Assembly (NCBI GenBank): GCA_027014155.1
Contig: JALWEG010000023.1
Span: forward strand, 1 to 64,000
Length of the DNA stretch: 64,000 bases
Source: Aquificaceae bacterium
GTDB taxonomy: Bacteria; Aquificota; Aquificia; Aquificales; Aquificaceae
Direction: 5' to 3'
Shown: in pieces, positions 12,066 through 14,918 of the stretch
Numbering within the stretch: position 1 is the stretch's first letter
Layout of the letters: every line of letters starts with the position of its first letter
Translations under genes and position numbers: made by a program
Notes under the pieces: generated by a model
What the model was told of the DNA's origin: nothing
Databases searched by the model: none
Seen by the model: the letters and a program-made list of their open reading frames with translations, nothing else

Positions 12066-12141
12066 AGGCGGGTAGCTCAGTTGGGAGAGCGCAGCCCTTA
12101 CAAGGCTGAGGTCACGGGTTCGAGCCCCGTCCCGCCTACCA
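12066..12141 (+). tRNA. tRNA-Val (anticodon TAC)
   Basis: Complete cloverleaf: acceptor AGGCGGG pairs with CCCGCCT, D arm GCTC...GAGC, anticodon stem CAGCC/GGCTG around loop CTTACAA (anticodon TAC), T arm ACGGG-TTCGAGC-CCCGT. The 3' CCA is encoded. Its 3' end faces the phage-derived island. Confidence 0.97.
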
Positions 12142-12357: not shown

Positions 12358-12712
12358 TCAACCCACTCTATAATACTCCTCCCTGTATATCTTCCTCAAA
12401 TGCTCGGGCAGTTTGTCTATGGGATACTCCCCCTTGGCAATCTTGTTCAAGTGCCACCACCACTTCTCAAGAGGTTGGCTCTCGTCGTCCTGTATCTTAA
12501 AGCCGTGCCACTCGGGGGGAGTTTTCTATAAAGTAGCCGAGGTCAAGAAGTAAAAATTTATCCGCTCTCTTAGTTATTTCATCATTCTCCACACCATACT
12601 CGTATATAAGCTCCCTCTGCTTTTGCAGGTCAAAGGGGACGTTCTCAAATTCCAGTACCATGGTTTGGTAATCAGGTGCTAAAGCTTCTTTAGAATATGT
12701 TTTAACCGCCAT
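12358..12712 (-). pseudogene. Unknown island protein broken by a frameshift in a G6 run
   Basis: Starts MAVKTYSKEALAP and reads well for about 66 residues, then stops after FIENSPRVARL. If one base is removed from the six-G run at 12514-12519 the frame continues as SPEWHGFKIQDDESQPLEK and runs in a protein-like sequence to a stop at 12358-12360, giving about 117 residues. The total length is not a multiple of three, as expected for a one-base insertion. The protein is acidic and soluble-looking; I do not recognise the family. The upstream fragment ends 14 bases before it, so both were once one leftward operon. A sequencing error in the homopolymer is an alternative. Confidence 0.55.
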
Positions 12713-12726
12713 AGTTTAATTATGTG

Positions 12727-12811
12727 TCAATTCTTCACAACCGGGTAAAAGAACTCTGCCTTAGCGTAGGCGTATAGCTCGTTTATTTCCTCTTGCGTCT
12801 TAGGATTGCCT
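12727..12811 (-). pseudogene. 3' end of a lost island gene
   Basis: A short in-frame tail reading GNPKTQEEINELYAYAKAEF and ending FYPVVKN before a stop, in the same direction as the gene that follows 14 bases later. Upstream it is cut off at the junction with the IS256 scrap. The family is not recognised. Confidence 0.4.
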
Positions 12812-13087
12812 TTCTATAGCAACCACAAAACTGTCTATGAACACTAAGGCGTATACTGGCTCTAAAGGTCTTGAGAGCCATGCTCTTATTTCAGGCATTA
12901 TCCTGTCTGTGAGCCTTGAGATGGTAGAGGGGCTGAGTTCTACACCGTATATGTCTTTTAGGACAGCCTGTATGTCTCTGGTGGAGAGGCCTTTGGAGTA
13001 AAGGAGCATAAGCTTGTTTTGCAGGTCTTCAACAAGGGATAAGGAGCCTTTAGGGACGAGCTTTGGATTGAACTCAGAAAGTCTGTC
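12800..13087 (-). pseudogene. IS256-family transposase, internal fragment
   Basis: In-frame fragment of about 95 codons. It contains KGLSTRDIQAVLKDIYGVEL, then SPSTISRLTDRIMPEIRAW and YALVFID, the N-terminal helix-turn-helix and the start of the DDE domain of IS256/Mutator-type transposases. It is preceded by FNPKLVPKGSLSL and has no start codon of its own upstream. The match ends at FID, where the first catalytic Asp sits; the rest of the roughly 400-residue protein is missing, so it cannot be active. It sits exactly between the leftward and rightward phage genes and probably marks an old deletion. Confidence 0.8.
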
Positions 13088-13089
13088 TC

Positions 13090-13194
13090 ACCGTGAACGG
13101 GCAAGAGGTGCTTGAGATAGACATACCCAACTACATACTGAGGGTAAACGGCGAAGACGCTTACGCGGACGTAAGAGCAGCGCTCGGAATATAA
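13090..13194 (+). pseudogene. Phage major tail tube protein, C-terminal fragment
   Basis: The frame reads TVNGQEVLEIDIPNYILRV and ends NGEDAYADVRAALGI, which matches the C-terminus of the Mu gpM/P2 FII-type tube family (DIPNY...RVNG...RAALG). The 5' part is missing at the junction with the IS256 scrap. It is followed after 10 bases by the tail assembly gene, the standard order of Mu-like tail operons. Confidence 0.65.
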
Positions 13195-13204
13195 GGAGTA
13201 AGAG

Positions 13205-13504
13205 ATGGTGGAGGTAAAGCTCTCAAACGGAAGCACGGCAGTCATAAGAAAGGGTAAAGGCTCTGACCTCTTCAAGGCTCAGATGGCTGCAAACAACCCG
13301 GCGGAGGTGACCAAGTACCTAATCGCCATGCTCACAGAGATAGACGGCAAACCCGTAACCATAGACACCCTTGAGGAGCTTCCCCTTGAGGACGTCATGA
13401 ACCTCATGACCGCCTTCGGAGAACTGCACCCTTTGTCCCAGACAGCCTCACCCTCGCAGCCCTCATCAAAGAAGGACTCAGATACTCAGAACTCAAAGAA
13501 ATGA
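13205..13504 (+). CDS. Phage tail assembly chaperone, short (zero-frame) form
   Basis: Small protein of the Mu gp41-like tail assembly family, which binds the tape measure protein during tail building. Seen: VKLSNGSTAVIRKGKGSDLF followed by KYLIAMLTEIDGKPVTIDTL and LPLEDVMNLMTAFGE, the conserved core. After residue 77 the zero-frame sequence becomes Ser/Lys-rich and unlike the family, while the -1 frame carries a good protein sequence; see the slippery site. A clear Shine-Dalgarno sequence (AGGAG) lies seven bases upstream of the ATG. Confidence 0.75.
   Translation: MVEVKLSNGSTAVIRKGKGSDLFKAQMAANNPAEVTKYLIAMLTEIDGKPVTIDTLEELPLEDVMNLMTAFGELHPLSQTASPSQPSSKKDSDTQNSKK
13429..13435 (+). other. 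-1 ribosomal slippery heptamer in the tail assembly gene
   Basis: C-CCT-TTG in the reading frame of the gene is a correct X-XXY-YYZ heptamer. A -1 slip here joins the core domain to the -1 frame extension that follows. Programmed -1 or -2 shifts at this place are known in tail assembly chaperones of lambda- and Mu-like phages. Confidence 0.6.
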
Positions 13505-13584
13505 GCGTGGAGGAAATAGGTTGGTGGGCAGAAAGGTTCAGTCTCCTGAACGAAAAGCTTTCACAAAAGGCTCAAGAACCATAG
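13436..13584 (+). CDS. -1 frame extension of the tail assembly chaperone
   Basis: In the -1 frame the sequence runs VPDSLTLAALIKEGLRYSEL, then KEMSVEEIGWWAERF to a TAG. This is typical of the C-terminal part of Mu-like tail assembly proteins (the T part of a G/GT pair). It has no start codon or ribosome site of its own, so it would only be made as a fusion of about 126 residues through the slippery site. A decayed frameshift mutation is the alternative. Confidence 0.6.
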
Positions 13585-13753
13585 CGATAAGTGAGAGGAC
13601 AAACAGACCCACTCCCACGGCAGCGACCAAAGAGCCGAGAATCTTGTATCCCGCCTCATCAAGCAAAGCTGCCGGAACTATAAAGAGAACCAAAAGAACT
13701 ACCGCCCCGGCAAACATCTGTGCTTGGCGTAGGAAAACCCTCACAATCCCCAT
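13538..13753 (-). CDS. Small membrane protein of unknown function
   Basis: A 71-residue frame with two convincing hydrophobic segments (AGAVVLLVLFIVPAALL and ILGSLVAAVGVGLFVLSLI) and a charged C-terminus, filling the otherwise empty gap between the tail assembly gene and the tape measure gene but on the opposite strand. Its end overlaps the -1 frame extension by 47 bp. Shine-Dalgarno signal is weak. The opposite frame over the same stretch has an unlikely Thr/Arg/Lys composition, so this strand is favoured. It might be a holin-like remnant; no family is recognised. Confidence 0.4.
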   Translation of the reverse strand: MGIVRVFLRQAQMFAGAVVLLVLFIVPAALLDEAGYKILGSLVAAVGVGLFVLSLIAMVLEPFVKAFRSGD

Positions 13754-13767
13754 AAGGGTAATTTAAC

Positions 13768-14907
13768 ATGGAAAACCTGTTTACGATAGGGATAGTTCTC
13801 AAGACCATAGACAGGGCGACCAGACCCATCACCGAGGTCTCACACTCTATGAACGAGCTCTCTAAACGAACGGAGAAAACCTTATCCAAGTTTGAGCGAT
13901 TCAAAAGCAAGCTCAAAGAGGTAGGGACATCTCTGCAAAACTTCGCCAACACTATGATAGGGGTGGGGGCGTTTCATACTATTACCTCCGCCTTCTCCGA
14001 CCTTGAGGATGCCTCCACCATGCTCAAGTCCACATTTATGGAAGCGGGAGGCAAAATACCGGAGGTCTTCTACGCCATAGACAAAGAAGCCAAAAAGCTC
14101 GGGACAGAACTTCCCGGCACCACAGCAGACTTCTACCGGCTCGCCGCAACGATGAAACAGCTCGGAGTGCAAGGAGAAGTCCTTGCAAAAGGAGGACTGC
14201 GAGCCGCCTCATACCTCGCCGTTGCTCTCAGGATTCCTTACCAAGAGGCGGGAGAATCCGTCGCCAAGTTCTCACAAGCTTTGGGCATCGCCGGTAAAGA
14301 CCTCGTAAAGTTCATGGACGTGGTTCAAAGGCTCGGACATTTAGGCGTTCAGACCGGACAGCTCAGCTACGCCTTCTCAAGGCTGTCAGGAACGCTCAGA
14401 CTGATAGGCTGGCAAGGGCTTGAGTCTGCGAAACAGCTCTCTCCCCTCCTGGGAAGACTCATACAGCTTGGCTATACCGGGGAGACGGTAGGAACGAACC
14501 TCGCCAACATGTTTGATGCAATGATGAAAACGGACAAGGTCAATAAAGTTAACAAGTCCCTGAGTGGTTTCGGTGTTCAGCTTGAGTTTATAGACAAAGC
14601 TACCGGCAAACTGAAAGCTCCGGAGAAGATAGTTGCAGAACTCTCAAAAATAGGGGACTTAGTCAAAAAGGGAGTGATGACTCGCTCTCAGGCTCTGGCA
14701 CTCTTTGAAAATCTTTTCGGCGAGGGAGAAGCTGCTTCCTTTGCCATAACCTTCGCCCTTGAAGGTGTAGAGGGCTACAAGTATATGCAGGAGCGAATGC
14801 AAAAACAGTTCAGTCTCACTTTATCCTGTTTTTCACAAAAGGTGGTCGGGGCGACAGGACTTGAACCTGCGACCTCCGGTTCCCGAAACCGGCGCTCTAC
14901 CACCTGA
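13768..14907 (+). pseudogene. Phage tail tape measure protein, truncated
   Basis: N-terminal ~350 residues of a TP901/Mu-type tape measure protein: FTIGIVLKTIDRATRPITEV at the start, a helical segment, then the conserved region with TADFYRLAATMKQLGVQGEV, GLRAASYLAVALRI and SLLGRL-like repeats. Tape measure proteins are normally 700 residues or more. Homology ends near base 14820 and the frame then runs through the antisense of tRNA-Pro before stopping, so the last 25 or so residues (VVGATGLEPATSG and after) are not part of the original protein. The break coincides with the tRNA 3' end. Confidence 0.8.
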
Positions 14908-14918
14908 GCTACGCCCCG
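14843..14918 (-). tRNA. tRNA-Pro (anticodon CGG)
   Basis: Complete cloverleaf on the minus strand: acceptor CGGGGCG with CGCCCCG, anticodon stem CCGGT/ACCGG around loop TTCGGGA (anticodon CGG), encoded CCA. The C1-G72 pair is the expected bacterial tRNA-Pro feature. Its 3' end abuts the truncated tape measure gene. Confidence 0.97.

Follow-up and report, generated by a model that had tools for sequence, protein, structure and literature searches.

The window analysed here, a stretch of 64,000 nucleotides from an Aquificaceae bacterium, very probably holds the fossil of a Mu-like phage with a contractile tail, in which the tail assembly chaperone gene carries a conserved programmed -1 frameshift. 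The zero-frame chaperone gene (G-type product, 99 amino acids, forward strand) runs from an ATG at 13205 to a TGA at 13502-13504 and was recognized by matches to PF10109 and phrog_21320. Within it, at 13429..13435 on the same strand, lies the slippery heptamer C CCT TTG, assigned on its phase and on its sequence class, CCCTTT[G/C/A], which occurs at 25 of 31 related loci. The -1 frame is open from upstream of the heptamer, and its T-type extension (13435..13584, forward strand) adds 49 codons past the shift before a TAG at 13582-13584, giving a fusion of 126 amino acids.

An earlier note on this DNA, made from the letters alone, had put CCCTTTG in frame at 13429-13435 and at the end of the conserved domain. 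Reading of the sequence bears out both position and phase (C|CCT|TTG), and several kinds of evidence agree on the domain boundary: the PF10109 match covers residues 14-73, a profile from relatives (window copy excluded) stops at 13429, and an AlphaFold model (23 relatives in the alignment, mean pLDDT 84.5) loses its confidence at about residue 75, past which the chain is disordered, the disorder starting at the heptamer. Taken by itself, the heptamer in the window is weak, non-significant evidence because random reordering of the gene's own codons (20,000 shuffles) put one or more in-phase XXXYYYZ heptamers into the overlap in 17% of cases; on sequence comparison, it is conservation among the relatives that lifts the site above chance.

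Relatives and the -1 frame relation

A search with the window gene detected the G domain in 3 of 61 genomes, its own included; a relative's query found it in 8 of 136 genomes of the class, and a G-T profile had matches in 12 of 136 genomes of the phylum. Viral contigs scanned with the window protein alone yielded no relative, and scans with a relative's protein or alignments yielded 3 loci, 24 loci (some already found) and 3 more. Genome contigs added one locus, from a Sulfurihydrogenibium MAG and seemingly on the same contig as the locus of genome G110. The slip-site comparison comprises 31 loci. One of the viral contigs (IMGVR_UViG_3300009825_000002, 21.5 kb, L035) has a chaperone gene 99.7% identical to that of the prophage in genome G032 (L002), and this near-identity suggests a recently active phage.

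A profile of the -1 domains (T) of the relatives, with the window copy left out, matches the -1 frame of the window with E 9.8e-08, and the C-terminal domain that had been proposed up to the TAG at 13582-13584 does have related domains elsewhere; no related domain was found in the window's +1/-2 frame. When the T profile was run on six-frame translations of 24 loci, G and T matches stood in the -1 relation at every locus showing both, with weak matching (E 0.16) at L008 and L045, which seem to be one contig, and no T match at L011 or L042. Nine genomes have both parts on one contig (G000, G011, G032, G064, G090, G110, G114, G116 and G121), and the offset is -1 in 9/9; in G124 the G and T parts fall on separate contigs, and G055 and G123 show the T part only. 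The earlier note had named intact homologues with both parts in a single frame as the observation that would speak against it, and none was found among the recognizable viral loci or in the phylum genomes that the profile matched (12 of 136).

Conservation of the slip site

The same note had proposed intact homologues as the place to look for the heptamer and the overlap, and both are kept there, in the same phase. At 25 of the 31 loci, the G domain closes with CCCTTT plus G, C or A in this phase, and a related C-terminal domain comes next in the -1 frame. The other six comprise L042 (GGGTTTT), L044 (AAATTTT), L047 (AAATTTG) and three loci without a canonical heptamer (L043, L045 and L046); TTTTTTA is found among overlapping heptamers at the genome loci L010 and L011. 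After removal of near-identical genes (>97%), 21 of the 25 genes with CCCTTT[G/C/A] were kept as non-redundant, 14 with CCCTTTG, 4 with CCCTTTC and 3 with CCCTTTA.

Of the 78 codon columns in these 21 genes, just three have an unvarying third base, namely the two slip-site codons and a Trp column; over the remaining columns the mean majority of the wobble base is 0.61. The Pro codon is CCT in 21/21, and the codon before it is always nnC even though the residue may be Ser, Thr, Asn, Tyr or His. Since the G parts of the window and its relatives are identical at only 34-43 of 76-77 residues, this conservation of the slip site spans a deep split.

Alternatives to slippage at the heptamer

The main rival is that the -1 frame encodes a separate small protein, translated by termination and restart at an ATG near the zero-frame stop. 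The gene layout is consistent with this: at 27 of 31 loci the -1 frame has an ATG no more than 11 nt from the stop of the zero frame, and ATGA overlaps occur in the window (13501-13504) and at the G011, G032 and G110 loci. However, the other four loci have no -1 frame ATG within 30 nt, a ribosome-binding-like site of -4.5 kcal/mol or better precedes the restart ATG at only 5/31 loci, and the ATG of the window lies about 13 codons deeper into the T domain than those of its relatives. Moreover, the eight -1 codons from the heptamer to the ATG have a mean BLOSUM score of 2.31, against 1.20 in the zero frame and 1.09 in the third frame (20 aligned genes, excluding the window gene, which is one codon longer there), and the seventh of them always encodes Leu, written TTA, CTC, CTT or CTA. 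Conservation of the -1 frame at the protein level upstream of the ATG therefore means that this stretch behaves as -1 coding sequence, which restart does not need; nor would restart need the invariant wobble bases of the slip site. We consider restart at the nearby ATG disfavoured and improbable.

Less probable still is that the frame relation is real but arises by a slip elsewhere in the overlap or by transcriptional slippage, as might be supposed from the distant members L043, L045 and L046, where no canonical heptamer lies near the end of G; in the close group, however, the heptamer is the conserved element, and homopolymer runs of no more than three at the window site make polymerase slippage unlikely. 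A plain frameshift mutation in a decaying, once single-frame gene would suit a prophage whose tube and tape-measure genes are cut and whose host genome has no sheath or terminase match, but comparison with relatives, in which the -1 relation recurs in all nine one-contig genomes and all recognizable viral loci and no one-frame homologue appears, contradicts it and leaves it the least credible of all.

Proposed mechanism and candidate stimulators

Under programmed -1 slippage at the conserved heptamer, most ribosomes would read through to the TGA at 13502 and release the short chaperone (G), and some, carrying tRNA-Pro at CCT and tRNA-Leu at TTG, would slip back by one base onto CCC TTT and continue in the -1 frame to the TAG at 13582, which gives the long form, GT. 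If the products act as they do in lambda, G would coat the tape measure and T would recruit tube subunits, and only the intact relatives could still use slippage for making tails. We infer, rather than observe, the occurrence of slippage, its efficiency and the role of each product.

A possible stimulator is the Shine-Dalgarno-like CGGAGA at 13417..13422 (forward strand), which ends 6 nt before the heptamer and has a predicted duplex energy of -6.6 kcal/mol. Comparable sites (-5.8 kcal/mol or better, 18 nt upstream) occur in 15 of the 21 non-redundant genes, compared with 26% of 1141 background windows, but as the genes are related and not independent, this enrichment is no more than suggestive of a stimulator signal. 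RNAalifold predicts no downstream RNA structure among the members, and a scan of the window copy finds no downstream stem. A hairpin about 8 nt past the heptamer, seen in individual folds of several members, was rejected as unsupported, its covariation not exceeding that of shuffles (157/500).

Chaperone identity and the decayed prophage

PF10109 (Phage_TAC_7: E, 41 or 14) matches the window gene with 21.1 bits (E 3.3e-4), short of the curated cut-off of 25, and is matched at E 0.01 or better by 2 of 8 members of the chaperone group; we treat the gene as working like PF10109 and claim no formal membership of the family. The match to phrog_21320 is stronger (E 2e-17), and the gene is about 50% identical to its counterpart in intact relatives. 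In a fold search of the PDB, the chaperone model comes closest to 2ob9, a tail assembly chaperone of HK97 (probability 0.94, but E 0.13 and TM 0.49), and named chaperones are present among its weak fold matches in a viral structure library; solved structures searched by sequence with the chaperone gave no convincing match.

Upstream, at 13084..13194 (forward strand), lies the C-terminal remnant of an FII-type contractile-tail tube protein, its last 36 residues, which match PF04985 (E 9.4e-11, profile 132-165 of 165) and are 50% identical to the end of a relative's intact tube gene; the N-terminal part is lost. Downstream, at 13768..14907 (forward strand), lies the truncated N-terminal part of a tape-measure gene (PF10145, E 2.8e-23), which aligns to residues 3-315 of the 796-residue intact protein and whose homology to intact relatives stops near 14685, about 305 residues in. 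The order tube, chaperone, tape measure is thus seen in both the remnant and the intact relatives, and the name tail assembly chaperone, given in the earlier note, holds on this position and on the PF10109 and phrog matches.

The remnant is bounded by tRNA-Val (12066-12141) and, on the right, by tRNA-Pro (14843..14918, reverse strand, ARAGORN). In genome G001, of the same genus, tRNA-Pro precedes the same gene as in the window; the G001 contig begins at this tRNA, and an empty integration site is not readable there. A fragment of a Mutator-type transposase (12800..13009, reverse strand; PF00872, E 6e-18, profile 110-173 of 379) abuts the truncated tube gene. A further gene remnant, in two frames and oriented opposite to the tail genes, lies at 12385-12712 on the reverse strand, and its segment 12385-12519 shares 55% identity with the last part of a reading frame of the G032 prophage (L014 12483-12848). 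Neither the sheath nor the terminase of a relative had a match in the host's own genome, where the same method, run with a relative's tape measure, found only the copy in the window. With tube and tape measure cut and sheath and terminase unmatched, the host therefore carries a fossil, as the earlier note's phrase of a decayed prophage implied, and the frameshift belongs to the lineage of the phage; because the window copy is a relic, its slip site is ancestral and not of present use.

The affiliation with Mu, also anticipated in that note, comes from an intact relative, the prophage of G011, which has MuA-like and MuB-like genes (phrog_310, MuA-type transposase, E 1.3e-26; phrog_296, MuB-type ATPase, E 1.6e-9), a terminase, a portal, a capsid and a sheath and, judged on these predicted genes, is a Mu-like transposable prophage. 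Its MuA- and MuB-type genes gave no tblastn match in the window. The transposase region of the G011 prophage (L012 726-3724, forward strand) consists of two overlapping frames, one ParB-like with a helix-turn-helix and one MuA-like.

A small membrane-protein gene on the reverse strand (window 13538-13753; counterparts, all on the reverse strand, at L003 1855-2133, L031 2127-2345, L048 2524-2727 and L022 3358-3648) lies between the chaperone and the tape measure, where it overlaps the last part of the -1 frame. The copies of several relatives are alike (blastp without composition correction) and the window copy is unmatched (E 0.26 or more); many other loci lack this gene, and there the chaperone is immediately followed by the tape measure. 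It is possibly a moron gene that the lysogen expresses. A second copy in G011 (L013 5596-5832, reverse strand), 63% identical to that of the prophage, sits between metG and a repeat array resembling a CRISPR array and is adjoined by the apparent end of a G-T gene; this region is perhaps a second phage remnant.

Possible slip-site replacement and comparison with known systems

The chaperones of the G114/G121 group (L045 5247-5258; L046 4090-4101; L009) lack a canonical heptamer where the domain ends; their last codons are ACG GGG and a stop, TAG or TAA, and the T domain lies in the -1 frame. At such sites, slippage could involve just one tRNA, paired with GGG and moving back onto GGG, while the stop codon waits. 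A tentative reading, which we hold to be possible but doubtful, is that in the Mu-like phages of Aquificota and their kin the -1 relation is fixed and the slip sequence has been repeatedly replaced (CCCTTT[G/C/A], TTTTTTA, AAATTTT/AAATTTG, GGGTTTT, and ACG GGG plus stop), with the G114/L045, G121 and L046 sites being stop-codon-assisted. If true, thermophilic hosts would harbour a stop-codon-assisted -1 site, with the -2 site of Mu as its cousin.

The tail-chaperone frameshift, a known kind, is extended here to phages of deep-branching thermophiles, in a group in which the C CCU UUN slip site is kept at silent positions. Related genes with differing slip sequences and one frame relation, together with -2 Mu-like cousins, form a natural series in which to study how one slip site can take the place of another while the two-product output is kept. 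Ordinary gene callers do not join frames, so the long product would be missed.

According to one review, tailed phages use -1, -2 or +1 shifts in the tail chaperone gene, with -2 in Mu (PMC5009743). A report on the transposable phage KS10 states that its authors found no shift site (PMC2628397), and a study predicting chaperone shift sites describes many with motifs other than XXXYYYZ (PMC10885494). We found no account of this slip site, or of Aquificales phages with it, in the open part of the literature.

The closest parallels are P2, Mu, Bise and lambda. P2, a contractile-tailed phage with gpE and gpE+E', has the same order (tube FII, chaperone E, tape measure T) and an annotated -1 frameshift leading to a long form, and PF10109 is named after E; unlike the Aquificota genes, its sequence is matched by neither the G nor the T profile in the six-frame test. 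P2 uses a T-run heptamer as its slip site and is not known to be transposable. Mu is transposable and contractile-tailed, with gp41 between tube and tape measure and a frameshifted long form, but neither profile matches it in the same test, and the shift differs in kind. The earlier note had called a -1 site notable because Mu-like phages usually use -2: the Mu record does annotate a verified -2, so that -1 differs from Mu itself, but in the Aquificota phage group -1 is the rule. Among named phages, the nearest relative of the G domain is the chaperone of Pseudomonas phage Bise (36% over 67 residues), whose genes are arranged alike, down to a small reverse-strand gene ahead of the tape measure; its downstream domain, however, lies in the -2/+1 frame, as read by eye, and is unmatched by the T profile. 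Lambda differs in its non-contractile tail and its sequence family, and its slip site is GGGAAAG. Its gpG and gpGT, an early case, are nevertheless like the genes described here in that two chaperone forms arise by -1 slippage (PMC5009743).
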